This document shows, piece by piece, positions 41,338 through 62,543 of a stretch of DNA of 64,000 bases. The stretch comes from Algoriphagus pacificus (lineage in GTDB: Bacteria > Bacteroidota > Bacteroidia > Cytophagales > Cyclobacteriaceae). The stretch spans positions 765,048 to 829,047 of the forward strand of contig NZ_JAFKCU010000001.1 in assembly GCF_017254845.1 (NCBI RefSeq), given 5' to 3'. The first letter of the stretch is position 1. Each line of letters begins with the position of its first letter. The notes beneath the pieces were generated by a model. It had not been told where the DNA came from. It worked only from the letters and a program-made list of their open reading frames with translations, and ran no database searches. A program made the translations under genes and the position numbers.

Positions 41338-41374
41338 TACGTAGAAAAATACGTAATAATACTTAATTTACTTA
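41338..41374. promoter_or_regulatory. TACGTA/TACTTA box array upstream of moeA
   Basis: Boxes: TACGTA at 41338 and 41350, TACTTA at 41360 and 41369, spaced 12, 10 and 9 bases, ending 27 bases before the moeA start. TAccTTaG at 41373-41380 resembles the Bacteroidota -7 element TAnnTTTG, with no clear -33 TTTG, as in an activated promoter. The first three boxes recur almost identically at 52253-52280. Boxes of this form are close to the NarL heptamer TACYYMT. Confidence 0.6.
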
Positions 41375-41400
41375 CCTTAGTACTCTGTTCAACATTAATT

Positions 41401-42573
41401 ATGGTTTCAGTATTTCAAGCGCTTTCCATTATCGATCAAAACACAGATGCTTTGGCTTCTATACTTTTACCTCTTTCTGAGGTAAATGGATGTGTTTTAG
41501 CAGAGGATGTCAAAGCTCCTATCAACCTTCCTCCATTTCGCCAATCGGCGATGGATGGTTATGCTTTCCAACATGGAGCGCAGGGAGAATTGAAGCTGAT
41601 TGGTGAAAGCAAAGCGGGAGATTTCAAGGAATTTGAGGTGTCCATTTCTGATTGCCTTAGAATTTTCACTGGTGCTAGAGTTCCAGATCAGGTGGATACA
41701 GTCGTGATGCAAGAGCATGTGGAGAAAACTGCCGACGGTATTCGAATTCTAAAAATGCCTGAGAAAGGAACCAATGTGAGACCAATTGGAGAACAGATAA
41801 AACAAAATGAGATTGTCCTTAAAAAAGGAACCAAAATCAATGCGGCGATTGTCGGATTTTTGGCTGGTTTAGGGATCTCCAAGGTTTTAGTCATTCGAAA
41901 ACCCAAAGTAGCACTGATCGTCACGGGAAATGAACTTCAGGAGCCAGGAACGCAACTGAAGCCCGGGTCAGTGTATGAAAGTAACCGAGTAATGCTGGAA
42001 ACAGCAATTGCTTTAGAAAAAGTGGAATTGATTCATTCTGATCATGTTTTGGACGACAAAGAGTCCACTTACAACGCTATTCAGAAAGCCCTGGAAGCTG
42101 ATTTGGTTTTAATCTCAGGGGGCATTTCAGTGGGTGATTATGATTTCGTCAAGGGGGCTTTGGAAAAAAACGGAGTGGAGGAAAAATTCTATAAAGTAAA
42201 TCAGAAGCCAGGGAAACCGCTTTGGTATGGGAAAAAAGGTGAAAAGCAGGTATTTGCTTTACCTGGGAATCCAGCCTCTTCTCTTACTTGTTTCTTGATT
42301 TATGTGACTGCGGCTATTCGCAAAATGAATGGAACTGCCCCAATAGACATCAATTTGAAAAAAGGTAGAATGAAGGGAAGGTATACCAATGTTTTTAATA
42401 AAGCCTTATTTCTTCAGGTAAGAGAACATGCGGGTGAATTGGAAGTCTATCCAAAGCAAGCTTCGAGCATGTTGGTTTCTTTTACACAAAGCAATGCGTT
42501 TTTATTCGTACCCGATGATGTCAAAGAAATCTGCGATGGGGATGAAGTCATGTACATTCCATTTAAACTTTAA
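41401..42573 (+). CDS. moeA: Molybdopterin molybdenumtransferase MoeA
   Basis: 390 residues. N-terminal PLSEVNGCVLAEDVKAPINLPPFRQSAMDGYAF is the MoeA opening; the MPT-binding domain contains VALIVTGNEL and ISGGISVGDYDFVKGAL; VFALPGNPASSLTCF and the C-terminal domain complete it. It inserts molybdate into adenylylated molybdopterin. First gene of the cofactor operon, behind the TACGTA box array, nine bases before mobA. Confidence 0.96.
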   Translation: MVSVFQALSIIDQNTDALASILLPLSEVNGCVLAEDVKAPINLPPFRQSAMDGYAFQHGAQGELKLIGESKAGDFKEFEVSISDCLRIFTGARVPDQVDTVVMQEHVEKTADGIRILKMPEKGTNVRPIGEQIKQNEIVLKKGTKINAAIVGFLAGLGISKVLVIRKPKVALIVTGNELQEPGTQLKPGSVYESNRVMLETAIALEKVELIHSDHVLDDKESTYNAIQKALEADLVLISGGISVGDYDFVKGALEKNGVEEKFYKVNQKPGKPLWYGKKGEKQVFALPGNPASSLTCFLIYVTAAIRKMNGTAPIDINLKKGRMKGRYTNVFNKALFLQVREHAGELEVYPKQASSMLVSFTQSNAFLFVPDDVKEICDGDEVMYIPFKL

Positions 42574-42581
42574 TTGATCTG

Positions 42582-43157
42582 ATGCTTCGAATCAAGGAAG
42601 ATATAGCGGTTTATATACTCTGTGGCGGGAAAAGCTCCAGAATGAAAACAGAGAAAGGTCTGGTGGAATTTCATGGGAGGCCTTTTTTACAGTGGATTTT
42701 AGATGCGGTTACTCCTCTGACAAGTAAGATCACTTTGGTCACGAAGAACCCAGCTTACGCTAGCTACGGATTGCCTATGATTCCAGATTTGGTGGAGGAT
42801 CAGGGTCCTGTCGGTGGAATATTTACTGCTTTGGCTGATTCTAGCTCCAAATACAACTTGATTTTAAGCTGTGATATTCCCAAGATCTCGACAGAAGTGT
42901 TGGACTCTTTGATTCAATCTGCAATAGATTCTGACAAAGATGTTTGCATCCTCTCTGATGGAAAGCATGATTATCCTTTGATTGGATGCTATCAAAAATA
43001 CTTGCTACCCGCGTTCCAACAAGCTATTGAACAAAATCATTTGAAGCTATGCTCTTTAGTGGATAGCCTTAGGAATAATAAATTGGTCATTTCCCAAAAA
43101 GATCAAGCTGCTTTAAGAAATATCAATACCCCAGCAGAATTACTTAGCCTCACCTAA
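42582..43157 (+). CDS. mobA: Molybdenum cofactor guanylyltransferase MobA
   Basis: 191 residues. YILCGGKSSRMKTEKGLVEFHGRPFL is the nucleotide-binding signature (GGxSxRM and Lys), with PDLVEDQGPVGGIFTAL and LSCDIP (metal-binding Asp) following. It makes the guanine dinucleotide form of the cofactor, as needed by the nitrate reductase encoded at 53844-57368, which is of the bis-MGD type. Confidence 0.9.
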   Translation: MLRIKEDIAVYILCGGKSSRMKTEKGLVEFHGRPFLQWILDAVTPLTSKITLVTKNPAYASYGLPMIPDLVEDQGPVGGIFTALADSSSKYNLILSCDIPKISTEVLDSLIQSAIDSDKDVCILSDGKHDYPLIGCYQKYLLPAFQQAIEQNHLKLCSLVDSLRNNKLVISQKDQAALRNINTPAELLSLT

Positions 43158-43168
43158 CAAACCTAGCC

Positions 43169-43981
43169 ATGAATACAATCACAGGAAAATCCCCGCGCCT
43201 GACCTTGGTTGGGGCCGGACCCGGAGATCCAGAACTTCTGACACTTAAAGCTATCAAAGCCCTGCAAGATGCCGATGTGGTACTATACGATGCTTTGGCA
43301 AATGAAGAAATTCTTGATTATGCCAATAAAGCACTGAAAGTCCCAGTAGGTAAAAGAAAAGGGATGCATTCCTATTCTCAGGATGAAATCAATGAGTTGA
43401 TTGTCAACTATGCTTTTGAATTTGGGCATGTGGTTCGATTAAAAGGGGGAGATCCTTTTGTTTTTGGACGAGGAAAAGAGGAGCAGGAATTTGTAGAGAA
43501 TTTCGGGATCGAGACAAATATAATTCCTGGGATATCCTCTTCAGTGGCGGTTCCTGCCTCCATTGGGATTCCAGTTACCTCCCGAGGAGTTTCAGAGAGC
43601 TTTTGGGTGATTACCGGGACTACCAGTGAGCGGAAATTATCCAATGACATAACCTTGGCCGCACAGTCCACAGCCACCGTTGTGATATTGATGGGTTTGG
43701 GAAAAATAGCTGAAATCACCTCGATTTATAAAGCTTTGGGAAAACAGGAATTACCTGTAGCGGTCATTCAAAACGGAACCAAAGCCGAACAAAAAGAAGT
43801 CATTGGAACAATTGAGACAATCCATCAGTTGATTGAAAAAGAACAAATTTCAGCTCCAGCTGTCATTGTCATTGGAGAAGTGGTGCACTTGGCATCCAAA
43901 AAAATCAAAGAAGAATTGGACTATGTATTAGAAGATGAGTTTATTTTTCAGAATCTTAATACCATTCCATTCGTAAATTAG
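43169..43981 (+). CDS. cobA: Uroporphyrinogen-III C-methyltransferase (SUMT)
   Basis: 270 residues. SUMT motifs: LTLVGAGPGDPELLTLKA, VVLYDALANEEIL, VVRLKGGDPFVFGRGKEE and the IPGISSSVAVPASIGIPVT block. It methylates uroporphyrinogen III to precorrin-2, the first step to siroheme. Siroheme is needed by the nitrite reductase NirB in this same region, which explains a siroheme gene inside a molybdenum cofactor operon. No dehydrogenase/ferrochelatase gene for the later steps is seen here. Confidence 0.93.
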   Translation: MNTITGKSPRLTLVGAGPGDPELLTLKAIKALQDADVVLYDALANEEILDYANKALKVPVGKRKGMHSYSQDEINELIVNYAFEFGHVVRLKGGDPFVFGRGKEEQEFVENFGIETNIIPGISSSVAVPASIGIPVTSRGVSESFWVITGTTSERKLSNDITLAAQSTATVVILMGLGKIAEITSIYKALGKQELPVAVIQNGTKAEQKEVIGTIETIHQLIEKEQISAPAVIVIGEVVHLASKKIKEELDYVLEDEFIFQNLNTIPFVN

Positions 43982-43997
43982 GCGTAATTTAAATCCT

Positions 43998-44234
43998 ATG
44001 ATTCAGGTAAAGTATTTCGGTGTAATAGCAGAAGCCGCTCAAAGAGACTCGGAAAGTATTCCTGCGGAAAAAGTGACTTTATCCAAAATCCTTTCCGATT
44101 TATCATCACGTCATAATTTGGGTGAGTATAATTTTCAAGTTGCTTTAAACAGAAAAATAGTCTCCAACTTTACTGAGCAGGAGCTTTCAGATGGGGATGA
44201 AATTGCTTTTTTACCACCCTTTTCCGGAGGCTAA
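43998..44234 (+). CDS. moaD: Molybdopterin synthase sulfur carrier subunit MoaD
   Basis: 78-residue ubiquitin-like protein. IQVKYFGVIAEAAQ at the start and DGDEIAFLPPFSGG at the end; the terminal Gly-Gly is adenylylated by MoeB and then thiocarboxylated. Its stop codon is two bases before the moeB start. Confidence 0.92.
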   Translation: MIQVKYFGVIAEAAQRDSESIPAEKVTLSKILSDLSSRHNLGEYNFQVALNRKIVSNFTEQELSDGDEIAFLPPFSGG

Positions 44235-44235
44235 A

Positions 44236-45288
44236 ATGAACCGATACATCCGTCAGATTACCTTGCCTCAAGTAGGACTTTCCGGTCAGCAAAAACTGAT
44301 GGAAAGCAGCGTCCTTGTTATTGGAGCAGGAGGTCTGGGATGTGCAGTTTTACCTTATCTAGCTGCAGCTGGGATCGGAAGAATCGGAATCATTGATGGG
44401 GATAGAATAGAGGAATCCAACCTGCATCGGCAAGTCCTTTATGGAGCGGAGCAAATTGGCCTATTCAAAGCCAAAGAAGCTGCAGACTCCATCCTCAAAA
44501 ATAATTCAGATGTAGAAATCCTCGTATTTGAGGAGTTTTTGACCCAAAAAAATGCTAAGCAAATCTTCTCGGATTTTGATTTGATTCTGGATGCGACGGA
44601 TAACCTGTTTATCCGATATGTCATCAATGATACTTGTGTAAGCCTAAACAAGCCTTTTGTCTATGGTTCGATCCATCAGTTTCAAGGGCAGGTTTCTGTG
44701 TTTAACTACCAAGATGGACCGAGTTATCGTGACATTTTCCCCGAGGAAAATCAATCTGCTCCCAACTGTGCCGAGGCAGGAGTTTTGGGCACAACGGTTG
44801 GATTAATAGGTATGCTTCAGGCTAATGAAGCCTTGAAAATTATTCTGGAAATCGGAGAAGTGATTTCTGGAAAACTATTGATTTATGATCTCTTGAGTAA
44901 TTCCCAGCAAGTGTTTGAATTTGGTAAGGTGCCTGGAAGCAAAAAGCCCGAGATTCAAAATCCTTTTGAAATGATTTCTGCAGAAGAGGCAATCCAAAGT
45001 GGGAGTTTGCTCCTGGACGTGAGAGAACTGGGTGAAATGCCTTCCGTCCATCTGGAAAATGTAAAACAGGTTCCTCTTTCGATATTGGAAGTGGAGTCAG
45101 TGAACTTAGATAAAGAACAAGAAATAAAGATCTTTTGCCAGTCGGGAGTACGAAGTCGGAAAGCCGCACAATTGCTTTCTGAGAAAGGATTTCAGAACTT
45201 GAAGCTGATTCGAGGAGGCGCAAAGGATTTATTGCAGTTTGTGGAAACTGAAATCGAGCGTAATTCGAAGAGATCTATTGTGAAATAA
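44236..45288 (+). CDS. moeB: MoeB/ThiF-type adenylyltransferase with rhodanese domain
   Basis: 350 residues. The ATG at 44236 is chosen because the sequence MNRYIRQITLPQVGLSGQQ is the E1 opening; a longer reading would overlap moaD. VLVIGAGGLGC is the nucleotide-binding loop, DGDRIEESNLHRQ the MoeB motif, and DATDNLFIRYVIND follows. The C-terminal rhodanese domain has the active Cys in FCQSGVRSRKA. The zinc-binding CxxC pairs of E. coli MoeB are not visible (SYRDIFPE stands where CYRCLFPE is expected), an oddity. Activates MoaD; the rhodanese domain may supply the sulfur. Confidence 0.85.
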   Translation: MNRYIRQITLPQVGLSGQQKLMESSVLVIGAGGLGCAVLPYLAAAGIGRIGIIDGDRIEESNLHRQVLYGAEQIGLFKAKEAADSILKNNSDVEILVFEEFLTQKNAKQIFSDFDLILDATDNLFIRYVINDTCVSLNKPFVYGSIHQFQGQVSVFNYQDGPSYRDIFPEENQSAPNCAEAGVLGTTVGLIGMLQANEALKIILEIGEVISGKLLIYDLLSNSQQVFEFGKVPGSKKPEIQNPFEMISAEEAIQSGSLLLDVRELGEMPSVHLENVKQVPLSILEVESVNLDKEQEIKIFCQSGVRSRKAAQLLSEKGFQNLKLIRGGAKDLLQFVETEIERNSKRSIVK

Positions 45289-45338
45289 TTATTGCTAGGG
45301 GAGATTTCACGTAGCCTATAATTTTGAATAAAATTTAC

Positions 45339-45767
45339 ATGAAAAAGGTATTTCTTGAGGGAGCAATTTCCCCTGAATTCATAGCAGATTCGATTGCCAA
45401 GCATCAAGGCAAACATAGTATTGGGGCTCATAATATCTTCTTGGGACAAGTGAGAGGAGATGAAGTAGAGGGTAAAAAAGTGGAATCCATTGACTTTACT
45501 TGCTATGAGGAAATGGCCAATGAAAAGCTTCATGAAATCCGGGAAGCGGCTTTTGAGAAATTCGACTTGACCTGTATGCATATCTACCATAGTTTGGGAA
45601 ATGTGAAAGTTGGAGGAATCTGCATCTTCGTTTTTGTGTCTGCTCCTAGAAGGAAGCAAGTATACGAAGCCACTGAATGGCTGGTAAATCAGGTGAAGTC
45701 AGAAGTTCCTATTTTCGGAAAGGAGATTTTTGAAAATGAGGAGAGTCAGTGGAAAGTGAACAGTTAA
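45339..45767 (+). CDS. moaE: Molybdopterin synthase catalytic subunit MoaE
   Basis: 142 residues from the ATG at 45339; an upstream TTG would add only five residues. GQVRGDEVEGKKVESIDFTCYEEMANEKLHEI and IYHSLGNVKVGGICIFVFVSAPRRKQVYEATEWLVNQVKSEVPIFGKE are the MoaE core, with the conserved Arg and Lys residues of the active site. Together with MoaD it turns the precursor into molybdopterin. Confidence 0.92.
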   Translation: MKKVFLEGAISPEFIADSIAKHQGKHSIGAHNIFLGQVRGDEVEGKKVESIDFTCYEEMANEKLHEIREAAFEKFDLTCMHIYHSLGNVKVGGICIFVFVSAPRRKQVYEATEWLVNQVKSEVPIFGKEIFENEESQWKVNS

Positions 45768-45909
45768 GAAAGTCAGAAAGCTGAAGTCAGAAGTCTAAAA
45801 ATTTGCCAGTCTGAGCGTCCACGATAATTATCGGGATCGAAGACATTTGAGACAGTATTCATTAAGAAGTTGCAGTTAGCGGAGAGAAAAGCCGGAATAA
45901 AATTTAGAA
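45768..45909. repeat. Intergenic repeat-like sequence inside the cofactor operon
   Basis: 142 non-coding bases between moaE and moaCB hold a degenerate direct repeat (GTCAGAAAGCTGAA then GTCAGAAGTCTAAA, 45771-45798; a related AATCAGAAAGCTGAATT is at about 41201-41217) and the perfect 12-base palindrome CGATAATTATCG (45822-45833). The palindrome resembles the CCCGATA...TATCGGG elements scattered between genes in Cytophagales. Confidence 0.4.
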
Positions 45910-46827
45910 ATGGTAGACATTACACATAAAATAACCACACTACGAGTTGCGAAGGCAAAGGCCATTGTTCAGGTAAGCATGCCCGAAACCATCGCAGCAG
46001 TGGTCGAAAATAAAGTTCCCAAAGGCAATGTCTTTGAAATGGCGAAAGTGGCGGGGTTGTTTGCCGTGAAAAATACCCACATCACCATTCCAGATTGCCA
46101 TCCGCTTCCTATAGAATACACTGCGGTGGAATACGATATCCAAGGCTTGGAAATCCATATTTTCATCACTGTGAAGACGGTTTATAAAACAGGAGTAGAA
46201 GTGGAAGCAATGCACGGGGCATCTGTGATTGCTTTGACCATGTATGATATGCTCAAGCCGATTGATAAGGGTATCGTCATCCGGGAAGTAGGATTGGTGG
46301 AGAAAAAAGGAGGCAAAAGCAGCTTTAAGCAACAGCACCCGAAAACCATCAATGCAGCCGTGGTCGTTTGTTCGGATTCTATTTCCAAAGGAATCAAGGA
46401 AGATGCGGCAGGAAAGGCTATTGTAGAGAAACTCAAGTCCATGGAAGTGGAGGTGTCTTCTTATGAAGTGATTCCCGATGAGCTTGAGCAAATCCGTCAA
46501 AAGGCATTAGAATATGCGGATACCAATAAACTGATCATTTTCACCGGAGGAACAGGCCTCTCTAAAAGAGATGTGACGCCGGAAGCCCTAGAACCGATTT
46601 TGGAGAGAAGAATTCCTGGAATTGAGGAGGCCATCCGAAGCTATGGGCAAAAAATTATGCCTTATGCCATGCTTTCCAGATCAGTGGCTGGAACGATTGG
46701 AGATGCCTTGATTTTGGCGCTGCCAGGAAGTACCAATGGAGCAAAGGAATCCATGGATGCTGTTTTCCCGCATTTGTTGCATGTTTTTAAAATCTTGAAA
46801 GGAGCTCAGCATGAAACAGCAGACTGA
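45910..46827 (+). CDS. moaCB: MoaC-MoaB fusion protein for molybdenum cofactor synthesis
   Basis: 305 residues. The first roughly 150 are MoaC: MVDITHKITTLRVAKA, IPDCHPLPIEYTAVEY, VEVEAMHGASVIALTMYDMLKPIDKG. The next part is MoaB/MogA: VVVCSDSISKGIKEDAAGKAI and LIIFTGGTGLSKRDVTPEAL. MoaC acts with MoaA to make cyclic pyranopterin phosphate; the MoaB/Mog part adenylylates molybdopterin. Two non-consecutive steps are thus on one chain. It overlaps moaA by 17 bases. Confidence 0.92.
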   Translation: MVDITHKITTLRVAKAKAIVQVSMPETIAAVVENKVPKGNVFEMAKVAGLFAVKNTHITIPDCHPLPIEYTAVEYDIQGLEIHIFITVKTVYKTGVEVEAMHGASVIALTMYDMLKPIDKGIVIREVGLVEKKGGKSSFKQQHPKTINAAVVVCSDSISKGIKEDAAGKAIVEKLKSMEVEVSSYEVIPDELEQIRQKALEYADTNKLIIFTGGTGLSKRDVTPEALEPILERRIPGIEEAIRSYGQKIMPYAMLSRSVAGTIGDALILALPGSTNGAKESMDAVFPHLLHVFKILKGAQHETAD

Positions 46828-47827
46828 ACAACTTCAGGTACTCAAAGATCAATTTGGTAGGAAACACGACTATCTCCGAATTTCTCTGATCGAGAAATGC
46901 AATCTGCGTTGCAAGTATTGCATGCCGGAGGAGGGAATTCCACTGACGCCTTCCAAATTCATAATGAATGCTGAAGAGATTGAAAGTCTGGCTAGAACTT
47001 TTGTGGGATTAGGAGTAAAAAAGATCCGCTTGACGGGCGGTGAACCGCTGCTTCGAAAGGATTTTGAAGATATTTTAAGCCGATTGTCTCAATTTGATGT
47101 GGATCTTTCCATCACTACCAACGGGATTTTAGCTGATCGATTTGTATCGATTTTTAAAAAGCACGGGCTTAAAAAAATCAATTTCAGTCTGGATACTCTG
47201 AAAGAAGAGCGTTTCAAGGAAATCACCCGGAGATCAGGATATCAGAAGACACTTGATAACCTGGATTTATTTATCCGGGAAGGTTTTGAAGTGAAATTGA
47301 ATATCGTTTTGATGAGAGGCCTCAATGATGACGAGGTGGTGGACTTTGTACGATTTACCAAAGACTTGCCGATTTCGGCTAGATTTATTGAGTTTATGCC
47401 TTTTGATGGAAATAAATGGGATCGATCGAAAATGGTTTCCGAACAGGAGGTACTCGCAGAGGTAGGTGCTGCCTTTGGGTCTGAAAACCTGGTTTCGTTA
47501 CCTGATGAACAAAACCTAACTGCCCGTAAATTTCAGATTAAAGGTTTTCAGGGAGATTTTGGGGTGATTTCATCTGTGACCAATCCTTTTTGCGGAACCT
47601 GCAATCGAATCCGTCTTACTGCCAACGGAAAGATAAAAAACTGTCTTTTTTCCAATCTAGAGACCGATTTGCTGACTGCTTTACGGGCTGGCGAAGATGT
47701 GGAAAAACTGATTTTGGAATCCATTTTTCATAAAAAGGCCGTTCGTGCCGGTATGGATAACCTAGAAAAACTGTCTGATCCAGACTTGCATTCTGATAAT
47801 CGTAGTATGATTGCTATTGGGGGGTAG
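46811..47827 (+). CDS. moaA: GTP 3',8-cyclase MoaA
   Basis: 338 residues. Radical SAM motif C-N-L-R-C-K-Y-C (near 30-37) binds the first [4Fe-4S] cluster. The C-terminal second cluster is in NPFCGTCNRIRLTANGKIKNC, and the chain ends in GG as expected for MoaA. It catalyses the first step of molybdenum cofactor synthesis from GTP with MoaC. Last gene of the cofactor operon. Confidence 0.97.
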   Translation: MKQQTEQLQVLKDQFGRKHDYLRISLIEKCNLRCKYCMPEEGIPLTPSKFIMNAEEIESLARTFVGLGVKKIRLTGGEPLLRKDFEDILSRLSQFDVDLSITTNGILADRFVSIFKKHGLKKINFSLDTLKEERFKEITRRSGYQKTLDNLDLFIREGFEVKLNIVLMRGLNDDEVVDFVRFTKDLPISARFIEFMPFDGNKWDRSKMVSEQEVLAEVGAAFGSENLVSLPDEQNLTARKFQIKGFQGDFGVISSVTNPFCGTCNRIRLTANGKIKNCLFSNLETDLLTALRAGEDVEKLILESIFHKKAVRAGMDNLEKLSDPDLHSDNRSMIAIGG

Positions 47828-50962: not shown

Positions 50963-52237
50963 TTAATCTTCTTTAATTGAATAACTCAATAGTCTTGGGT
51001 TTACGATCAATTGCACCCAGCCCCAGTTATTGGTGTTGTCGGAGCTAATTCCACCTTTGATGGCACTCATACTTTCTGAAGCAAAGAGTTGGGAATAGCC
51101 TATGGCCATTTTAATGTTTTTAGAAATGGTTTTGTTGTAGACAAGGTCTAATTCAGTCCCTAAATAACTTTCTTGATTATCTGCGAGTTGGGCTTGTGAT
51201 GAAAAGAAATGAACATCCAATCCCAAGCCTGAGGTTTCTCCTGTTGGCATAGCAATTTTCCCATACAGGTTATTCAAGCCCACGTTGTTAGCATGGTTTC
51301 CTACATAGAAATAATCCATGTATCCGTTGAATTTATGGTTAGTTCCATAAAGGGGAAAAAAGGAATTATTCTTTTCTTCGCCTCCTTGATCCGTACCACT
51401 CAGGGACTCAAACCCAAGAGTCAAATTTACTTTTCCAGGTTTGAATTTTGCCTCTAACATGTATTGATAAGCAGATAAATCCGTGGAGGCAGTTGCTTTT
51501 CCGGTTTGAAGATATGCAGAGCCAGTAAGGGTAAAGAAACTAACAGGAAGGTTGAAATAGGTTCCTGTAGTTTGTCTATAGTAAACGCCGTCTGGAAGTG
51601 GATTGGCTTCTTCTGTATATTTCTGAAACCCGTTATTCATAAAAAGAAAGCTGATATTTCCTTTGTCCCATGCCTTCTGAAAATGGGCCATTTGCATCAA
51701 TTTGTAGGAATAAAATCCATTGATGTTATATTCTGAACCTATGATCTTTTGATCTTGCTGGTTATAAGCAAAGGCTAAATCCACATCGAATTTATTTTTG
51801 GAGAATTTCAACATGGCAGCATCATGAAACCTTCCCTGCATGGCCCAGTCAACTCCTCCAAGAATCCGTTGATCATCGTATGAAATTACCTGCCTGCCTA
51901 ATTTTAAAGCCCAGGTTTCGGTAAAAGAATAGCTTAACCAAGCCTGAAAAAGCGAGAAGGATTCATTTCCATCGTTGATGGCCAATTGGCGTGTATCACC
52001 CCAGGTACTGACATCCTGCACGCTGAAATAAACTTGAAGTTTTTCATCACCATATCCAAAATTCAATCGGGATCTTTGAGTCACAAAAGCGGCGGCTTTT
52101 GCATCATCCGGAAAAAGGTTACCAAATCCGTGTCTGAATTCAAATCTTGGGCGGATATCCGCATCCAGGGTGAAAGTCTGTGCTTGGCTAAGCTGAATAC
52201 AACTTAACAAGAGGAATGAGAAGAGAATACGTTTCAT
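50963..52237 (-). CDS. Alginate-export-like outer-membrane porin in the nitrate regulon
   Basis: 424 residues. Signal peptide ends near QLSQAQ. The mature protein opens DADIRPRFEFRHGFG and continues as many long amphipathic strands (LQVYFSVQDVSTWGDTRQ, WALKLGRQVISYDDQRILGGVDW), the pattern of the alginate-export family barrel (PF13372). It ends in a Lys-Glu-Asp tail rather than an aromatic. Its promoter carries TACGTA boxes shared with moeA, the nitrate transporter and the response regulator, so it probably passes nitrate, nitrite or a linked solute through the outer membrane (inference from context). Confidence 0.72.
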   Translation of the reverse strand: MKRILFSFLLLSCIQLSQAQTFTLDADIRPRFEFRHGFGNLFPDDAKAAAFVTQRSRLNFGYGDEKLQVYFSVQDVSTWGDTRQLAINDGNESFSLFQAWLSYSFTETWALKLGRQVISYDDQRILGGVDWAMQGRFHDAAMLKFSKNKFDVDLAFAYNQQDQKIIGSEYNINGFYSYKLMQMAHFQKAWDKGNISFLFMNNGFQKYTEEANPLPDGVYYRQTTGTYFNLPVSFFTLTGSAYLQTGKATASTDLSAYQYMLEAKFKPGKVNLTLGFESLSGTDQGGEEKNNSFFPLYGTNHKFNGYMDYFYVGNHANNVGLNNLYGKIAMPTGETSGLGLDVHFFSSQAQLADNQESYLGTELDLVYNKTISKNIKMAIGYSQLFASESMSAIKGGISSDNTNNWGWVQLIVNPRLLSYSIKED

Positions 52238-52252: not shown

Positions 52253-52315
52253 TACGTATAAAAATACGTATAAATACTTAATATTAAAAAATATAAATAC
52301 GTATTTATTTACGTA
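52253..52315. promoter_or_regulatory. TACGTA/TACTTA box arrays upstream of the porin gene
   Basis: TACGTA at 52253, 52265, 52298 and 52310, TACTTA at 52275. Spacing is 12 and 10 within the first group and 12 within the second. The first group repeats the moeA array (41338-41365) with three differences in 28 bases; the two groups are arranged as an imperfect inverted repeat. Confidence 0.6.
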
Positions 52316-52385: not shown

Positions 52386-53828
52386 TTAATCTAGCTGTCT
52401 GGTAAATTTTTTCTTAATAAAATCAGCCTTTGGAGCATCGCAAACAGGACAGACATATTCAATTGGAAGATTTTCAAAAGGTGTTTCTGCAGGAATATGC
52501 TGAGTTTGGTCACCGTACTTAGGATCGTAAATAGTTAAGCAATTTTTGCATTGGTAGGCCTCTGTAATACGTATTTCCTTTGCCGGCGCTGGTTTTTCTG
52601 ATTTGTTCTGTTCATTCCCCAGTTGGTCAAAATACATCTTACTCAGTTCGATCAGTAAATTGGGCAGTTCTTCCTTGTCCACCTCCTGTACATGGACTAT
52701 GAATTCCTGAGTATTGGGGTCAAAATTTTTGGCATAGAGGAGATTGTAAGTGCTTCGGATATTTAGAGTTTCCAGACCAAAGGGAGGTGCGTTTTTTTCA
52801 ATAACGATCGAAGTGAAGTAATAGGCTTTTTTGGTATAATCCGTGATACCAAAGGTCAATCCATAGGTACTGATGTCGTTTTTGTTGAAATTGTTAACTA
52901 GGTATTCTTTCAGATCTAAAGCCGATTTATTGTTTACAGGCAAGTGCCAATTGAGTTCTAGCATGGAATGGCGAACGTTGATCCCGTGCTTTCCGAGCAG
53001 TTTTTCCCATTCCAACTTTTGCTTTTCTGGAATCCCTTTGATGATAATGGATTTCCAAGGTGTGATGGAGATTTTTCCTATTTTACAATCTGCACAGAGG
53101 TCACATAGTACTTTCAAAAAATCTATATAATATTTATTATTTCTCCAGTACAAACCAAGCCAATAGGAATCCGCTCCTACTCGATTGATTCCCTCATAGT
53201 ATGGAAACGGATAAAAAGGTACTTCTAAAGATTGGTCAACAGTTCGGTTGTTTGTGTCCACAGCATCATTGACCAGCTCAAATAACATATCTGTAGAATC
53301 CGGTTCTTCCAATAACAATTCTTCAATGGTAGTCGCAACTTTGGCCAGGTCCCAGCTGTAAATCAATGCCGGATACATTTCAGTTTTTTCCCATTCAGGG
53401 AGTCGGACATAAAGGTACCAATAATCCTCGTGCTCAGAAGCGATGAAATTTAGATGACCAGTAAACAATGGAACCAATCGTTGCCTCGGATCGGTGATAT
53501 TGATTTTCAGTCCTGATTTTTGTCTAAACTGCTCCAAGATATATAAGTAGCGATCACCCGTGAGCCAGGGAGTATTCGGGAAAATATCTGCTGAAACATA
53601 GGAGGAAACTATATTTTCGGCCCCTTCTTGGTCTGGAGAAATGATCTGGAATTTTTCTTTTTCCAAAACATCTACTTCTTCTCCTTCCCCGATAAAGAGA
53701 ATATCCTGCCTGGATCCCAAAGAAATCGTATTGAGACCTGCGCTTTCAGCTAATTCCAGAATCTGTTTTAACTCGGCTGGAGATAATACCCCACCTCTCA
53801 CTATTACTCTCGAAAACGTCTGTTTCAT
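52386..53828 (-). CDS. Nir/Sir-like protein fused to a C-terminal rubredoxin domain
   Basis: 480 residues. N-terminal RGGVLSPAELKQILELAESAGLNTISLGSRQDILF and a later KIGKISITPWKSIIIKGI look like the ferredoxin-like half-domains of nitrite/sulfite reductases, but the siroheme-[4Fe-4S] cysteine pattern (C-x5-C ... C-x3-C) is absent. The last about 56 residues are a complete rubredoxin: YQCKNCLTIYDP ... NLPIEYVCPVCDAPKADF with two CxxC pairs. Directly downstream of the nitrate reductase (15 bases apart). It probably carries electrons to or from the reductase or the NirB system; this pairing is not standard in textbook nitrate pathways. Confidence 0.75.
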   Translation of the reverse strand: MKQTFSRVIVRGGVLSPAELKQILELAESAGLNTISLGSRQDILFIGEGEEVDVLEKEKFQIISPDQEGAENIVSSYVSADIFPNTPWLTGDRYLYILEQFRQKSGLKINITDPRQRLVPLFTGHLNFIASEHEDYWYLYVRLPEWEKTEMYPALIYSWDLAKVATTIEELLLEEPDSTDMLFELVNDAVDTNNRTVDQSLEVPFYPFPYYEGINRVGADSYWLGLYWRNNKYYIDFLKVLCDLCADCKIGKISITPWKSIIIKGIPEKQKLEWEKLLGKHGINVRHSMLELNWHLPVNNKSALDLKEYLVNNFNKNDISTYGLTFGITDYTKKAYYFTSIVIEKNAPPFGLETLNIRSTYNLLYAKNFDPNTQEFIVHVQEVDKEELPNLLIELSKMYFDQLGNEQNKSEKPAPAKEIRITEAYQCKNCLTIYDPKYGDQTQHIPAETPFENLPIEYVCPVCDAPKADFIKKKFTRQLD

Positions 53829-53843
53829 CTCTTCAGGGTGAAT

Positions 53844-56800
53844 TTATGCCATGATTTTGGATTGGTTCAATAACTCACGAACCTCACTTTTGCAACTGCC
53901 ACAACCTAATCCAGCGCCAGTTTGAGTACAGAGCTCTGAAAAATCTTTACAGCCTCCAGCGATAGCTTCTTTGATATTTCCATCGCCAACCCTACTACAG
54001 CTACAGACCAATTTTCCAATTACGGGCCTCGTTTCAGAAGATCCCATCAGCAAGGATTTTCTTTTTTCGGAAAGTTCAATTTTGTTTTCAATGAGAGTTT
54101 TAAATTCCGCAAACTCATTTTTATCTCCCATGAGTACGGCACCGATAAGCAAATCGTCCTTTACAATACATTTCTTGTAATACCTTCTGCTGATATCGGT
54201 AAAGACGATTTCTTCGTAACTATCATCGTTTTCTGGGATAAGGATATCTCCGATGCTACAAAGCTCTAGATCTTTGAATTTCAGAATATTCATCAACACT
54301 GAACCGTCATAGGAGCTGCTGACGTCGCCAGCGATGTAATTGGCCAAAATCGAGGCTTGCTCCTCAGCCGCTGAGGTAATGCCAAACAATTGATTGTTGT
54401 ATTCGGCTATTTCTCCGATGGCAAAAATATTGGAGAAGTTGGATTGCAAATGCTGGTTGACTTTGACTCCCCTTCCGCAAATGATGCCATTTTCTCTTGC
54501 AATTTTAATGTTTGGTTGGGTACCAATGGCATATACAATCGCATTTGCCTCTAGAATTTTCCCACTTTTTAAAGTGATGTTCAGTGTTTTGTTGTCTTGC
54601 TCATCGAAAACAGTACTGACCTCATTGTCAAAATAAATATGGATTCCCCGCTCCTGTACATCCAGTGCCAGAAGTTTGCTGGAAACCGGATCGAGTTGCC
54701 TTTCCATTAATCGGGAGGCTCTCTGGACAATTGTTACTTTGACTTGGGTATGTTGTAGTGCAGCAGCCAATTCCAAGCCTAACAATCCGCCTCCAACTAT
54801 GACCACATGTTGGTTTTCGGGAGGGAGATTGGTTGCGTTTAGGTATTCTTTAAAACGGTCCGCATCTGTTTTATTCCTCATTGTAAATCTTCCTGGCAAA
54901 TCCAGCTGGGCATCTTTTGGCACAAAAGCCCTGCTTCCAGTAGCCAAAATCAATTTGTCAAAGGCATGTTCGGAGCCGTTTTCATCCAACACCACTTGGT
55001 TAATTGGATCAATTCTCTCAATGGACAGCCCTGTATGAAGGCTGATTTTTAACTTTTTCAGTTCATTTTCCTTGATCTTTTGCAATTGTTCCCAAGTCAA
55101 TTCTTCCGTTACATATTCTGGAAGTAAAACCCGATTATAAAATGGATTGGGTTCTTTTGAAAAGACATGGATCTGATCCGTTTCATTGTGTTCCCGGTAG
55201 TTTTGAATAAATCTAAAAGCGGCTGCTCCTGCTCCGATCACAATGATTTTTTCTACAGGCTTTTTATATTTTTTGACTGAGACGGTCGTAAACTTAAAAT
55301 CAGGCTCCTTTGATTGTGGGTCTACCCGAGTGAAAGTCAGATTATTGGCCCGGTTTAGATCATTTTGCAATTGTTTTCCCCAGTGCATAGGAAGAAAGAC
55401 TACTCCTTCGCGGATGTTTTTGGATAGTTTGGCTCGTACACGAACTATTCCATTGCTGCTTTTAATCTCCACCACATCTCCTTCTTTGACTTTGTTGATG
55501 TAGGCATCGATGGAATTCATCTCTAATACGGGATGGGAATAGTGTGTTCTCAGTCTGGAAACTTTACCTGTTTTGGTCATCGTATGCCATTGATCCCGAA
55601 CTCTTCCAGTTGTTAGAATAAATGGAAATTCCTGACTTGGCTTTTCCGAGGTGTTTTCTATTTGGGCGGGTAAGTTAAATATTGCTTTCCCAGATGGCGT
55701 ATGGAATTTTTTATCTGTAAAAAGCCTCGGAGTTCCTTCATGACGGTATTCCGGTACAGGCCATTGGAAACTTCCCTCATTTTTTAAACGATCGTAATTC
55801 AAAAATGAAATGTCAATGGAAGTACCTTTGGTCATAGCGGCATATTCCTCATAGATTTCCTCTGAATTGGAAAAATTAAATCCTCGGAAGCCCATTCTCT
55901 TGGCAAAATCACATAGAATTTCCACATCAGGTCGAGCCTCTCCCGGCGGATCAATTCCCTTGTTCAGATAAGAAATTCTGCGCTCAGAATTAGTCATGGT
56001 TCCTTCCTTTTCGAGCCATCCAGCAGCCGGAAGTACCAGATCTGCATATGCAACTGTGTCTGAGCGGTGGGATATATCCTGGACGACAACAAATTTGGCA
56101 TTGGCCATCGCCTTTTCCATTCTTTTCAGGTTGGGAAGACTTACCAACGGATTGGTACAAATGATCCAAATGGCTTTCATTTTCCCTGATTCCAATGCAT
56201 CAAACATTTCTGTCGCTGATAGACCGGGGTTGGGTGAAATCTGATCTACTCCCCAAAAATCTGCAACTTCCTGTCTATGTTGTGGATTGGAAAGTTCTTT
56301 ATGAACAGCTAATAAACTAGCCATCCCTCCGACTTCCCTGCCTCCCATGGCATTGGGTTGGCCAGTAAGCGAAAATGGACCGTTTCCTGGTTTCCCTATC
56401 CTTCCTGTAACCAGTGAAAGGTTCAAAAGGGCGAAGTTTTTATCTGTTCCGATTGCACTTTGGTTTAGACCCATAGCCCACATGCTGATAAAACCATTTG
56501 AAGTGCCGATCAGATCAGCGGCAGTACGGATATCGTCAATCGGTACTCCACATAACTTGGATGCGGTACTCAAAGAAACCGACATCACTTGTTTCCGGTA
56601 TTTGAGATAGTTTTCAGTGTGGTTATCGATGAAATTTTGATCTACAAAACCAGTTTCGATTAACCTTCTACCTATCGCATTGTATAAAATTATGTCTGTG
56701 CCGGGGATTAGTTGCAGGTGCAAATCGGCAAAATTGGCTGAATCCGTTTTTCGTGGATCCACGACTATGACTTTTACATTTGGATTTTGCTCTTTGTGCT

Positions 56801-57368
56801 TTTCCAGTCTTCTGAAAAGGATGGGATGGCACCAGGCAGGATTTGCTCCTGCAATCAAAAAAACATCAGCCAACTCAATGTCTTCATATGAAATCGGAAC
56901 CGAATCCTCTCCGAATGTTTTCTTTTGAGCAACCACCGCCGAGCTCATACATAATCGGGAATTGGTATCAATATTATTGGTTCCTAAAAAACCCTTTACC
57001 AGTTTATTGACGATGTAGTATTCCTCTGTGAGGCATTGACCGGAAACATAGAAACCGACACTATCCGGACCATGTTTATGGATGATGGATTTAAAGACGC
57101 CAGCCGCCCGATCCAAGGCATCGTCCCATGAAACCCGCTCTCTAGGATGCGATCTGCTCCACCGCATTTCAGGAAATAGAATCCTATCAGAGGTATCATT
57201 GACCACATAGTGAAGATTCATTCCCTTGCTGCAAAGCATACCCTTGTTTACAGGATGGGAAGGATCACCTTCGACCATAACTTTTTCCTGTGTGTTGACA
57301 CTGGCGAGAATACCACAGCCGACACCGCAATAAGAACAAGTGGTTTTTATTTTTTTACTGGAAATCAC
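53844..57368 (-). CDS. nasC: Single-chain assimilatory nitrate reductase: molybdopterin, FAD/NAD and BFD domains
   Basis: 1174 residues. The N-terminal [4Fe-4S] motif CSYCGVGC...LCSKG and a full molybdopterin oxidoreductase domain (about 1-680: SRLCMSSAV, DVFLIAGANPAWCHPILFRR, GRVRDQWHTMTKTGK) are nitrate reductase type. Then a pyridine-nucleotide-disulfide-oxidoreductase module (about 705-1110: FAD loop IVIGAGAAAFRF, NAD loop VVIVGGGLLGLELA), and a BFD-type [2Fe-2S] domain (KLVCSCSRVG ... TGAGLGCGSCKSEV, about 1120-1174). In Klebsiella the catalytic and NADH-reductase parts are separate proteins. Preceded by the transporter gene and followed by the rubredoxin fusion. Confidence 0.93.
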   Translation of the reverse strand: MISSKKIKTTCSYCGVGCGILASVNTQEKVMVEGDPSHPVNKGMLCSKGMNLHYVVNDTSDRILFPEMRWSRSHPRERVSWDDALDRAAGVFKSIIHKHGPDSVGFYVSGQCLTEEYYIVNKLVKGFLGTNNIDTNSRLCMSSAVVAQKKTFGEDSVPISYEDIELADVFLIAGANPAWCHPILFRRLEKHKEQNPNVKVIVVDPRKTDSANFADLHLQLIPGTDIILYNAIGRRLIETGFVDQNFIDNHTENYLKYRKQVMSVSLSTASKLCGVPIDDIRTAADLIGTSNGFISMWAMGLNQSAIGTDKNFALLNLSLVTGRIGKPGNGPFSLTGQPNAMGGREVGGMASLLAVHKELSNPQHRQEVADFWGVDQISPNPGLSATEMFDALESGKMKAIWIICTNPLVSLPNLKRMEKAMANAKFVVVQDISHRSDTVAYADLVLPAAGWLEKEGTMTNSERRISYLNKGIDPPGEARPDVEILCDFAKRMGFRGFNFSNSEEIYEEYAAMTKGTSIDISFLNYDRLKNEGSFQWPVPEYRHEGTPRLFTDKKFHTPSGKAIFNLPAQIENTSEKPSQEFPFILTTGRVRDQWHTMTKTGKVSRLRTHYSHPVLEMNSIDAYINKVKEGDVVEIKSSNGIVRVRAKLSKNIREGVVFLPMHWGKQLQNDLNRANNLTFTRVDPQSKEPDFKFTTVSVKKYKKPVEKIIVIGAGAAAFRFIQNYREHNETDQIHVFSKEPNPFYNRVLLPEYVTEELTWEQLQKIKENELKKLKISLHTGLSIERIDPINQVVLDENGSEHAFDKLILATGSRAFVPKDAQLDLPGRFTMRNKTDADRFKEYLNATNLPPENQHVVIVGGGLLGLELAAALQHTQVKVTIVQRASRLMERQLDPVSSKLLALDVQERGIHIYFDNEVSTVFDEQDNKTLNITLKSGKILEANAIVYAIGTQPNIKIARENGIICGRGVKVNQHLQSNFSNIFAIGEIAEYNNQLFGITSAAEEQASILANYIAGDVSSSYDGSVLMNILKFKDLELCSIGDILIPENDDSYEEIVFTDISRRYYKKCIVKDDLLIGAVLMGDKNEFAEFKTLIENKIELSEKRKSLLMGSSETRPVIGKLVCSCSRVGDGNIKEAIAGGCKDFSELCTQTGAGLGCGSCKSEVRELLNQSKIMA

Positions 57369-57409
57369 GAATTGATTTAGATAGGTTTAGGAGCAATTAA
57401 ATTCAAAAT

Positions 57410-57446
57410 AGCTCCTCGAAAGCTAGAAATCCAGTTTCAAGGAGCT
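57410..57446 (-). terminator. Weak hairpin between transporter and nitrate reductase genes
   Basis: AGCTCCTcGAAA (57410-57421) / TTTCaAGGAGCT (57435-57446), one mismatch, without a strong T run. It could be partial termination or processing between nasA and nasC, which are otherwise consecutive genes. Confidence 0.4.
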
Positions 57447-57466
57447 TATTTAGCCAAAAGGGATTA

Positions 57467-58891
57467 TTAATTTTCTATGGGAATGTATTCGGGCTTCAAT
57501 TTTTCCAATTCGATTTGAGCTTCTTTTTCATCCTCTGTGCTGAATCGAATAACCAGAGTGAAAATTCCAGCCAATACAATCATGACTCCAATTGTTAAAA
57601 AACCACTGGAAACTGCAGATGCAGCGGCGGCAGATTGAGCTGCGGCAGCAGCTTCAGCTCCCAAAGATTCGCTGGCGATGATTGCAGCTTTTTCTGCTAC
57701 TGAGGACTTTGAACTTAAAAACAAGGCGGCCAAAAAGGCTCCAAAATTACCCCCAGCACCGACAATACCTGAAATTGAGCCGATGGCTTTTCTGTTTATA
57801 AATGGGACGACCGAAAATGTTGCTCCTTCTGCCATTTGGACAGTTAAGCTAAATGCCACTAACAGGATTATTCCTAAAATCAGACTAGTTGCGAGTGAAA
57901 AAACACTAAGCATTACTCCCTCAGCCACTAAAATCACAGCAAGGAACCAAACTCTTCCCTTTAGACCTCCGATTTTACCGAATTTATCCCCAAAAAATCC
58001 ACCCAGTGTCCTAGCAAATATGTTCATCAAAGCAAAAGACAAAACGATGTTTCCAGCGGTGATCCGCTCCAGTTGAAATGTATTCTGTAAATAGTCATCC
58101 ATGGTTCCATAGACCGTCAATTCAATTCCGAAACAAGCTGCATAAACGATAAAAAGTACCCAGACTCTATAATCCTTTAAGGTCTCCATAAAGCCCACTT
58201 TATCTTTTTTCAGTTTTGGAAGATCAATTCCTTTTGCTTCCAGTTCGTCAAAATTGCCCTCCGGTGTATCCTTGGTAAAAAAGTAGTATAGCAAGCCTGT
58301 CAAAAAACAAACAATCCCTGCGATCACCATCGAATACCTCCAGGCATCTCCTTCGGCAATACCAAAACTGATCACCAGAGCGGCGATAATCGGCATTCCA
58401 AGTCTATTGGCTCCTCCTCCTAAATTTCCCCATCCAGCGGAAGTGGCATTCGCTGTTCCGACGACATTGGATGCAAACATCAGAGAGGTGTGTACTTGTG
58501 TGATGACAAAGGATGCTCCGATAAAACCCGTAAATAATCTACAGAGGTAAAATTGCATGGGAGTCTGGACCAGACCGCTTAGAATCACTGGGATAGATCC
58601 TAAAATCAAAAGCCAAGTGTAGCAAAGACGGGGACCGTACTTATCGCAAAGTTTGCCGATAAGTAATCTGGCGAAAACTGTTCCCGCTACCGCCAGTACG
58701 GTGGCATTCCATTTTTGTGCCGGAGTCAAGCCTAAGTCTTTCACCACATCCGGCATAAATGGGACAATGCCAAACCAAGCAAAAAAACAAATGAAAAACG
58801 CCAACGAGGTAATCCAGAAAGTACGGATTGGAACACTTCTAAAATCTCCTAGATTCAGACGTGTTGCTTTGTGTGAGATGTGATGTTTCAT
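57467..58891 (-). CDS. nasA: Nitrate/nitrite MFS transporter (NarK/NasA type)
   Basis: 474 residues, about 12 membrane helices. SAGWGNLGGGANRLGMPI is the nitrate-nitrite porter signature in the middle of the chain, and LCDKYGPRLCYTW is the usual MFS loop A. A low-complexity Ala-rich stretch (EAAAAAQSAAAASAVSSG, about 411-428) sits in a periplasmic or cytoplasmic loop and is unusual. Its promoter has TACGTA boxes and its start codon lies against a perfect 36-base inverted repeat. Supplies nitrate to the reductase gene downstream. Confidence 0.92.
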   Translation of the reverse strand: MKHHISHKATRLNLGDFRSVPIRTFWITSLAFFICFFAWFGIVPFMPDVVKDLGLTPAQKWNATVLAVAGTVFARLLIGKLCDKYGPRLCYTWLLILGSIPVILSGLVQTPMQFYLCRLFTGFIGASFVITQVHTSLMFASNVVGTANATSAGWGNLGGGANRLGMPIIAALVISFGIAEGDAWRYSMVIAGIVCFLTGLLYYFFTKDTPEGNFDELEAKGIDLPKLKKDKVGFMETLKDYRVWVLFIVYAACFGIELTVYGTMDDYLQNTFQLERITAGNIVLSFALMNIFARTLGGFFGDKFGKIGGLKGRVWFLAVILVAEGVMLSVFSLATSLILGIILLVAFSLTVQMAEGATFSVVPFINRKAIGSISGIVGAGGNFGAFLAALFLSSKSSVAEKAAIIASESLGAEAAAAAQSAAAASAVSSGFLTIGVMIVLAGIFTLVIRFSTEDEKEAQIELEKLKPEYIPIEN

Positions 58892-58954
58892 TTTTACTTA
58901 CTTTTATTTCAATAAAAGTAAGTAAAAATACTTATTAAATAAATATAATACGTA
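58891..58954. promoter_or_regulatory. Perfect inverted repeat and TACGTA boxes at the nasA start
   Basis: A perfect inverted repeat: TTTTTACTTACTTTTATT (58891-58908), two bases, AATAAAAGTAAGTAAAAA (58911-58928). The left arm touches the nasA start codon. On the mRNA it would fold into an 18-bp hairpin hiding the start. Boxes TAAGTA (58919), TACTTA (58929) and TACGTA (58949) are spaced 10 and 20 bases. Confidence 0.62.
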
Positions 58955-58974
58955 ATAAATTTAGCAAATAAATT

Positions 58975-59010
58975 AAAAAAACCTCCCAAATGGCTAAATG
59001 GGAGGTTTTT
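58975..59010. terminator. Rho-independent terminator of the response regulator gene
   Basis: Stem AAAAACCTCCCA (58977-58988) / TGGGAGGTTTTT (58999-59010), ten-base loop, with A/T runs on both sides. It separates the regulator from the nasA promoter. Confidence 0.88.
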
Positions 59011-59013
59011 GTA

Positions 59014-59030
59014 TACGTATTAAATACGTA
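59014..59030. promoter_or_regulatory. Pair of TACGTA boxes between the response regulator and nasA
   Basis: TACGTA at 59014 and 59025, 11 bases apart, just 3' of the regulator stop codon and about 125-140 bases from the nasA start, beyond the terminator hairpin. Confidence 0.45.
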
Positions 59031-59032
59031 GA

Positions 59033-59710
59033 TTAAATTAAGTGAAGCTCTCTCGATTTATTGGTGAGCTCAATCAGGTTTTTGACATTGAGTTTTTTCA
59101 TCAGATTAAAGCGGTGAACTTCAGCAGTTCTTTTGCTGATTTCTAATTCTTCTGAAATCTCATTATTCCCTTTTCCTTGCAGAATTAACTCCAGAATCTG
59201 TTTTTCTCGATTAGTTAGGGCCGCTAACTCCTCTGGAATCGGCTCAGCCTTTGGGGTAGGTTTTGCTTTTCCACCTACAAAATTATTGATGATAATAGCA
59301 GAAACATCACCTGTGAAATACTTGCCTCCATCGGCAATGGTATTCAAAGCTTTTAAAAATTCTGATTTGGAGGAACCTTTGAGTAAGTATCCATCTGCGC
59401 CTGCCTGGATAGATTCTACTACGTATTCTTCTGAATCATGCATGGAAAGCACCAGCTTCTTCACATCCGGGTATTTTTCAGTCAATTGCCTTACCACCTC
59501 GATTCCATTCATATTTGGCATCCGGATGTCTACAATTAATAAATCAGGCTGTTTTTTGGCAATTACCTGTAAGGCTTCCACTCCGTCTGAAGCTTCGTCG
59601 ATTACTTCAAATCGGGTTTCATTTTCCAATAAGGATTTGATTCCATCTCTGACCAATTCATGATCGTCAGCAAGGATTATTTGGGTAGGAGTCATGGGCT
59701 CTAAAGTCAA
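59033..59710 (-). CDS. NarL-family nitrate response regulator
   Basis: 225 residues. Receiver domain: IILADDHELVRDGIKSLLENE (acidic pocket), LLIVDIRMPNMNGIEV (phosphorylatable Asp) and GYLLKGSSKSEF (Lys). After a proline-rich linker comes a LuxR/NarL-type helix-turn-helix: LTNREKQILELILQGKGNNEISEELEISKRTAEVHRFNLMKKLNVKNLIEL. It is the partner of the kinase encoded just upstream. Nearby TACGTA/TACTTA boxes resemble the NarL heptamer and precede the transport, reductase and cofactor genes. Probable activator in the presence of nitrate or nitrite (inference). Confidence 0.9.
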   Translation of the reverse strand: MTLEPMTPTQIILADDHELVRDGIKSLLENETRFEVIDEASDGVEALQVIAKKQPDLLIVDIRMPNMNGIEVVRQLTEKYPDVKKLVLSMHDSEEYVVESIQAGADGYLLKGSSKSEFLKALNTIADGGKYFTGDVSAIIINNFVGGKAKPTPKAEPIPEELAALTNREKQILELILQGKGNNEISEELEISKRTAEVHRFNLMKKLNVKNLIELTNKSRELHLI

Positions 59711-59738
59711 TACGTAGTAAAATAAGCAAATTTACGTA
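59711..59738. promoter_or_regulatory. TACGTA pair upstream of the response regulator
   Basis: TACGTA at 59711-59716 and 59733-59738, 22 bases (two helical turns) apart, in the short gap between the kinase stop and the regulator start. Suggests autoregulation of the regulator gene. Confidence 0.5.
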
Positions 59739-62538: not shown

Positions 62539-62543
62539 AGCAA

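Follow-up and report, generated by a model that had tools for sequence, protein, structure and literature searches.

Among described two-component systems of nitrate control, NarX-NarL and NarQ-NarP of Escherichia coli provide the best-known reference, with NarL acting at single and at paired sites, the latter forming a 7-2-7 inverted repeat (PMC7419079, PMC4549865). A tail-to-tail palindrome with 7-4-7 spacing has been reported for SsrB (PMC2837388). Within the Bacteroidetes, a class of nitrate kinase/regulator pairs, narHK/narRR, has been catalogued, and the portion of that work available describes a NarX-like sensor, a PAS domain or none, no HAMP or GAF-like domains found and adjacent nitrate genes, with the PAS-bearing kinases grouped with that of Indibacter alkaliphilus (PMC8199190). 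No DNA sites or targets of narHK/narRR were found in the open literature searched, nor in the available portion of PMC8199190. The present analysis concerns a window of 64,000 nucleotides (the whole stretch of DNA analysed; contig NZ_JAFKCU010000001.1, positions 765,048 to 829,047) within the 5.28 Mb, 50-contig genome of Algoriphagus pacificus, in which genes for nitrate uptake, nitrate and nitrite reduction and cofactor synthesis surround a sensor kinase and a response regulator (RR), and in which hexameric boxes of the type TACGTA or TACTTA precede several of these genes. These boxes are probably the operators of one regulon, with the RR, a probable NarRR, as their binder and the core promoter as their place of action. 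Uptake, reduction and molybdenum cofactor genes are thus probably switched together. To our knowledge, few regulator motifs have been defined in Bacteroidota. For a pair already catalogued (PMC8199190, as far as its text was available), the analysis adds an operator motif, its grammar, a testable promoter mechanism and a target list, which comprises the transporter, nitrate and nitrite reductases, the porin, and molybdenum and siroheme cofactor genes.

A preliminary description of this DNA had placed boxes before moeA, a porin gene, the nitrate transporter gene (here nasT) and the RR gene, and all of them were recovered. Counting both strands, with palindromic TACGTA counted twice, 55 matches to TACKTA occur in the window, against 26.7 ± 5.9 in shuffled sequences counted in the same way. 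Genome-wide, TACGTA is scarce (204 copies in 5.28 Mb, versus 1291 of the reversed control ATGCAT), which would aid the specificity of a TACGTA-based operator. Of these copies, 17 fall in the 23.8 kb stretch spanning moeA to nirB, against 0.92 expected (Poisson p ~7e-17), so that the equal density elsewhere which that description had named as grounds for abandoning its proposal was not seen. All six TACGTA-N2..20-TACGTA pairs of the genome lie inside the nitrate cluster of about 24 kb, the sixth of them beyond the window, upstream of nirB. The reversed-pattern control gave ten pairs genome-wide (positions unspecified), and chance pairs can thus occur, but the clustering of the TACGTA pairs at one locus is not easily ascribed to chance. 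Two lone TACGTA copies, at 52568 and 59420, are intragenic. Of the four boxes assigned to moeA, the fourth (41369-41374) is probably promoter sequence rather than operator, as it overlaps the putative -7 element TACCTTAG (41373-41380) and does not recur as a box in the five relatives with moeA compared. The boxes at 58919-58954 belong to nasT as proposed, while the assignment of the pair at 59014-59030 to this gene is tentative, since this pair follows the RR stop codon and precedes a terminator-like hairpin.

The core unit of the motif is a dyad, TAMGTA-N4-TACKTA, written R-N4-F after the asymmetric boxes R (TAAGTA) and F (TACTTA), with P denoting a palindromic end. Orientation was counted in 58 loci, comprising 34 of the genus and a second set of 24 flavobacterial or related loci. 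In strict form, R-N4-F was found 23 times in the genus and 30 times in the second set, as opposed to none and one for F-N4-R, and with one palindromic end the counts are 29 and 23 for R-N4-P versus none and one for F-N4-P. The spacer consists of A/T only (W4) in 103 of 119 dyads. In the genome of A. pacificus four of five R-N4-F dyads fall in the cluster, and all four of those with an A/T-only spacer; the fifth (C23:634182), with a G in its spacer, was treated as a probable chance occurrence. The helical phasing of the boxes noted in the preliminary description holds across relatives. Box-to-box steps are common at 10, 12-13, 20-25 and 30-35 bp and scarce at 15-17, 27-28 and 37-38 bp, and among box pairs 6-60 bp apart the helical bands hold 348 of 439 in the genus and 261 of 315 in the second set, with 33 and 23 pairs, respectively, off-phase. 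Markov simulation gave 1.2 pairs within versus 2.4 between the bands (genus) and 10.2 versus 11.8 (second set). These counts are to be read with the bands having been chosen after the spectrum was known, with 24 steps in the bands and 19 between them, and with related sequences being non-independent. In the reversed-box control, in-phase steps likewise outnumber the others in the genus set (32 versus 11; second set 17 versus 12), and local sequence may therefore cause part of the phasing.

Within Algoriphagus, an RR ortholog (E <1e-100) is encoded in twelve of 36 genomes, eleven of which also encode NasT; in the 24 RR-less genomes, several of them small, incomplete assemblies, no nasT was found at E 1e-60. 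In 25 stretches around the cluster from eleven relatives, nearly all retain boxes upstream of nirB, nasT, porin, moeA/mobA and the RR gene, so that the lack of conservation which the preliminary description had named as refuting its proposal was not seen either. Exceptions are the porin of G028, for which no box was found within the 170 bp upstream stretch examined, and G018, whose stretches yielded no nirB, nasT or kinase gene. The two-box unit of the RR promoter, with a 22-23 bp step, is present in 12/12 genus genomes, its second box being TAAGTA in one, and in the full dyad collection described below the upstream box at 11-12 bp accompanies nine of eleven moeA dyads. The moe operon lies 230-250 kb from the cluster on the same contig in G017, G021 and G028, and on a separate contig in G019. 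Its boxes are retained in all four, so that the same site is common to unlinked target operons, which argues for action in trans. Furthermore, the number of R-N4-F dyads follows the RR, with a mean of 4.1 per genome in its presence and 0.33 in its absence; among genomes of at least 3.8 Mb the means are 4.1 (n=12) and 0.58 (n=12), respectively (p = 9e-5).

Beyond the genus, named genomes were scanned by RR alignment, and the best 80 of 555 confirmed loci were grouped into 31 with RR orthologs (at least 55 % identity), three intermediate and 46 distant; among them, L148 and L151 coincide with the loci of G028 and G017. R-N4-F occurs in 29 of the 31 ortholog loci, with 79 dyads where 0.2 would be expected, in two of the three intermediate loci and in one of the 46 distant loci. 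The two dyad-less ortholog loci are short contigs of 9.1 and 6.2 kb. Besides Algoriphagus, the orthologs include those of Salegentibacter, Algibacter, Polaribacter and Flavobacterium. In a phylum sample of 247 genomes, thirteen carry the RR at 1e-70 and 234 do not. At least three R-N4-F dyads were found in 13/13 of the former versus 20/234 of the latter, and at least four dyads with a W4 spacer in 11/13 versus 1/234. NasT is encoded (1e-80) in sixteen genomes of this sample, eleven of which lack a close RR and contain zero to five R-N4-F dyads each (none in four), and the dyad thus tracks the RR more closely than it does nasT. In G050, a member of another family, R-N4-F dyads stand upstream of porin and nirB (L140/L141). 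In G039 and G045, which have RR relatives and nitrate genes, no dyad was found in the stretches fetched; in those of G054 there is a single dyad, which lies some 7.6 kb upstream of nasT, away from the mapped nitrate genes.

The association also extends to the recognition helix of the RR, the compared residues of which we take to contact DNA. This helix reads HRFN in 34 of the 56 loci compared, 31 of which have a dyad, the three without it being L087 of G018, L173 and L174. A dyad is present in two of the 22 non-HRFN loci (L140, HRAN; L197, VDNHRAN). As HRFN was chosen after the table was known and its carriers are mostly orthologs, this is support rather than proof.

Several observations weigh against this reading. 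G018 has an intact RR and zero R-N4-F dyads genome-wide, G299 has the RR and just one W4 dyad, L173 and L174 (short contigs) read HRFN yet are dyad-less, and L197 has one dyad despite its VDNHRAN helix. As a signature of dyad-bearing regulators, RTx[EQ]xHR was rejected, with at least nine distant RRs sharing RTxExHR without dyads; HRFN gives the better separation. Conversely, the 20 RR-less genomes with at least three dyads include G139 with fifteen and G280 and G250 with eight each, in which no close RR is encoded (best E 1e-34 to 1e-40). Only 44 of the 63 listed W4 dyads of RR-bearing genomes lie on the same contig within 30 kb of the RR (eight of the nine places in G078 being listed), and the related genomes are not independent. 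At the porin, the promoter element discussed below is exact at the shared offset in only 1/15 dyads and near in 7/15, and at some Algoriphagus nirB promoters a TTTG was seen by eye at -33 spacing, with which an activator would not be required. In G018 nasT is absent genome-wide at 1e-60, and the kinase, nirBD and nitrate reductase were not found in the stretches fetched. The locus (L087 14142-15546, L088), with RR, DUF4202 and moe boxes retained, is possibly a case of natural regulon decay. As a separate observation, fourteen of the G139 dyads are of the type TACGTA-W4-TACGTA, some paired 33 bp apart, and resemble a dispersed repeat.

The 119 distinct dyads, from 65 loci, were each assigned to one of nineteen query genes within 320 bp. 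The most frequent targets are nirB (34 dyads), nasT (27), porin (15), RR (12) and moeA (11), followed by cobA (3), nasNR (3) and mobA (2), with twelve dyads unassigned. Of the latter, two stand upstream of genes for NMT1-like proteins and two upstream of globin genes, and a further two are found 339-382 bp ahead of ORFs of 1173 aa; of the five downstream ORFs scanned, one is of this last kind and is nitrate-reductase-like. NMT1-like transport proteins and globins are therefore candidate targets in the Flavobacteriaceae. The globin genes are those preceded by R-N4-F dyads at L163 18252 and L180 16979, in flavobacterial nitrate loci, and a role as NO-detoxifying members of the regulon is possible.

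The -7 element of Bacteroidota sigma-A promoters is TAnnTTTG, at -12 to -5 (PMC9723704). This element is matched here, but shares bases with the operator half-site. Measured from the dyad end, it stands at offset -2 in nirB (exact in 25/34, with four more near-matches, 29/34) and in nasT (exact in 9/27, with sixteen more near-matches, 25/27). In the flavobacterial RR genes it is exact at +6 to +10 in 11/12, and at moeA near-matches occur at +7 to +9 in 5/11 and at -2 in 3/11. A scan for sigma-70 promoters found 15, against 17.0 in shuffled sequences, Bacteroidota promoters being different. If TAnnTTTG is the -7 element, the dyad centres would lie near -18.5 or -27.5, and with the dyad inside the core promoter a direct effect of the regulator on RNA polymerase would be expected. 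On the downstream side, a further half-box starting at most 34 bp beyond the right box is present at nirB (31/34) and nasT (22/27), mostly 20-25 bp on, where about 6 % would be expected, and is less frequent at porin (4/15) and moeA (1/11).

A mechanism may be proposed in which the NarX-like membrane kinase would sense nitrate and control phosphorylation of the RR. NarRR dimers would bind TAMGTA-W4-TACKTA and, along the same helical face, additional half-boxes at a distance of one to three turns. The last TA of the right half-box is shared with TAnnTTTG at nirB and nasT, usually with a further half-box about two turns downstream, near the transcription start, while the dyad lies about one turn further upstream in the RR genes of flavobacteria and, less distinctly, at moeA. 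The targets, including the autoregulated RR gene, would be repressed without nitrate and released in its presence. The boxes, their grammar, conservation, co-occurrence with the RR and promoter overlap are read from the sequences themselves, while NarRR as the binder, nitrate as the signal and the sign of control are inferred. Repressors usually occupy the -7 element and the start region, and derepression by nitrate is preferred to activation by a narrow margin. The half-boxes upstream of the dyad, frequent at nasT, porin and moeA, could serve activation. That the regulon extends in this form across Algoriphagus, the Flavobacteriaceae and a small number of further families of Bacteroidota, with the operator fused to the -7 element, half-boxes in register on both sides of the start, a probably derepression-type control and a dyad reversed relative to NarL, may be given an even chance of being correct in all its parts.

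The strongest competing explanation retains the operators and NarRR, with the phosphorylated regulator acting as a nitrate-dependent activator, as NarL does at numerous promoters of E. coli. In that case the dyad in the core promoter would make up for a weak -33 element, and polymerase would be recruited by the upstream boxes, which often stand another 20-33 bp upstream. Upstream half-boxes within 40 bp are frequent (nirB 20/34, nasT 25/27, porin 13/15, moeA 9/11), the G of the -33 TTG is unconserved in the nirB profile, and nitrate genes are usually nitrate-induced, all of which make activation a serious possibility. Set against it are the position of the shared element, between -33 and -7 or on the -7 element itself, and the retention, at most nirB and nasT promoters, of a downstream box close to the start codon, which is the layout of a repressor.

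It is improbable that another DNA-binding protein occupies the boxes, with the RR merely a member of the regulon. We infer the binding by NarRR from sequence, which leaves room for such a protein, as do the retention of the RR in the dyad-less G018, the dyads of some genomes lacking a close RR, and a FUR-family gene 3.6 kb upstream of moeA. However, the dyads track the RR in Algoriphagus, in Flavobacteriaceae and in the phylum sample and follow the HRFN helix, and a scan of cluster proteins from moeA to nirD, which did not take in the flanking genes of other genomes, revealed no further regulator.

The preliminary description had likened the boxes to the NarL heptamers of E. coli, TACTTAT fitting TACYYMT, and in its full length the RR, a regulator of the NarL/FixJ type, indeed has NarL (1a04) as its best PDB match. 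Common to both systems are the nitrate theme, a LuxR/GerE-type regulator and half-boxes starting with TAC. Nevertheless, sites of the 7-2-7 type are very unlikely, and this part of the earlier proposal was set aside. The orientation is the opposite of that of the converging heptamers of NarL (53 strict R-N4-F versus one F-N4-R), and the dyad lies inside the core promoter, while the NarL sites of the ogt examples, in the text available, lie at -44.5 to -77.5. The recognition helix also differs (STVKVHVKH in NarL; aligned, VKVHVK in NarL versus AEVHRF in the RR), and the RR scores below the NarL and NarP equivalog cut-offs (153.5 versus 250 bits and 132.4 versus 343 bits, respectively). Taken alone, the DNA-binding domain has EsrB and SsrB as its closest sequence matches of solved structure, and PRK15369, which we take to be SsrB, is the best-scoring NCBIfam model for the RR, at 185 bits, below its cut-off of 242. 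The 4-bp spacer is shared with SsrB, whose tail-to-tail arrangement may or may not correspond to R-N4-F, but SsrB/EsrB control another regulon and SsrB has another half-site (mCCyTA). An origin of the boxes in AT-rich promoter sequence or in chance, with no regulator involved, is hardly credible. Although the promoters are AT-rich, with the right half-box running into the -7 element and the reversed-box control somewhat in-phase, the dyads of the ortholog loci far exceed expectation, they are absent from 45 of the 46 distant loci, and orientation bias and step counts are far above simulation.

The sensor domain of the kinase matches PF13675 (E 7e-15) and is NarX-like, and its segment VNVAGRQRMLSQ is presumably the P-box. 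PilJ, PAS_9, HisKA_3 and two HATPase models were found in the kinase, with none for HAMP or GAF-like domains, the latter often being missed by models even in NarX (PMC8199190, in the portion available). By these predicted domains and the adjoining nitrate genes, the kinase/RR pair fits the narHK/narRR class. The features of the locus are collected in Table 1, in which genes are named by best family, several NCBIfam matches being under curated cut-offs.

Table 1. Boxes, promoter elements and genes of the nitrate cluster in the window (strand as given; "." marks no strand).
Feature	Position	Strand	Remarks
moeA upstream box TACGTA	41338..41343	.	12 bp from core dyad
moeA core dyad TACGTA-ATAA-TACTTA	41350..41365	+	
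Putative moeA -7 element TACCTTAG	41373..41380	+	consensus TAnnTTTG (PMC9723704, portion available); overlaps 41369-41374 box
moeA, mobA, cobA (siroheme), moeB, moaE, moaCB, moaA cofactor gene run	41401..47827	+	
Porin-like gene	50963..52237	-	Alginate_exp family
Porin downstream box TACGTA	52253..52258	.	
Porin core dyad TAAGTA-TTTA-TACGTA	52265..52280	-	
Porin distal box pair	52298..52315	-	12 bp step
Rubredoxin / nitrite-sulfite reductase ferredoxin-like protein gene	52386..53828	-	
Assimilatory-type nitrate reductase gene	53844..57368	-	fused to NirB-like NADH reductase module
nasT, NarK-family nitrate/nitrite MFS transporter	57467..58891	-	300.8 bits versus cut-off 311.7
40-bp perfect palindrome at nasT ATG	58890..58929	.	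19-bp arms, 2-bp centre; contains right half-box and downstream TAAGTA by ATG
nasT core dyad TAAGTA-TTTT-TACTTA	58919..58934	-	right half overlaps -7-like TACTTTTA
nasT upstream box TACGTA	58949..58954	.	20 bp from dyad
Terminator-like hairpin 3' of RR gene	58970..59015	-	
Box pair TACGTA-N5-TACGTA	59014..59030	.	between RR stop codon and terminator-like hairpin
RR gene, probable NarRR	59033..59695	-	receiver + LuxR/GerE HTH
RR promoter boxes TACGTA-N16-TACGTA	59711..59738	.	22 bp step
Sensor kinase gene	59754..61565	-	PilJ/NarX-like sensor (P-box-like VNVAGRQRMLSQ), PAS, HisKA_3, HATPase
DUF4202 gene	61568..62149	-	
nirD (Rieske) gene	62161..62550	-	
nirB, 3' part (842 aa gene)	62544..64000	-	rest of gene and promoter boxes past window, L007 1592-4182

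The start of nirB lies about 1.05 kb past the end of the window, and its box array falls at the window-equivalent positions ~65055-65134 (L007 4103-4182). The RR translation start is most likely the ATG at 59695, judged from relatives. At the nasT start, a hairpin (z -6.1) was considered as an RNA switch and not adopted, since a transcript with its 5' end some 5 nt downstream of the -7-like TACTTTTA would begin within the loop, leaving the full stem untranscribed. The palindrome at 58890-58929 is instead read as a putative extra DNA operator, F-N18-R. In relatives the outer boxes of this palindrome are retained, while the inner arms are variable.

The DUF4202 gene stands between nirD and the kinase gene in ten of eleven mapped relatives, and adjoins the RR gene in the other (G018). 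Pairs of the form TACGTA-N16-TACGTA also occur near a VapBC-like pair, so labelled from reading of the translations only, in G017, G019 and G021; as these are not nitrate genes, they were left out of the regulon. The pairs (L106 4474, L108 5225 and L110 4639) lie between the VapBC-like pair and a divergent conserved gene.

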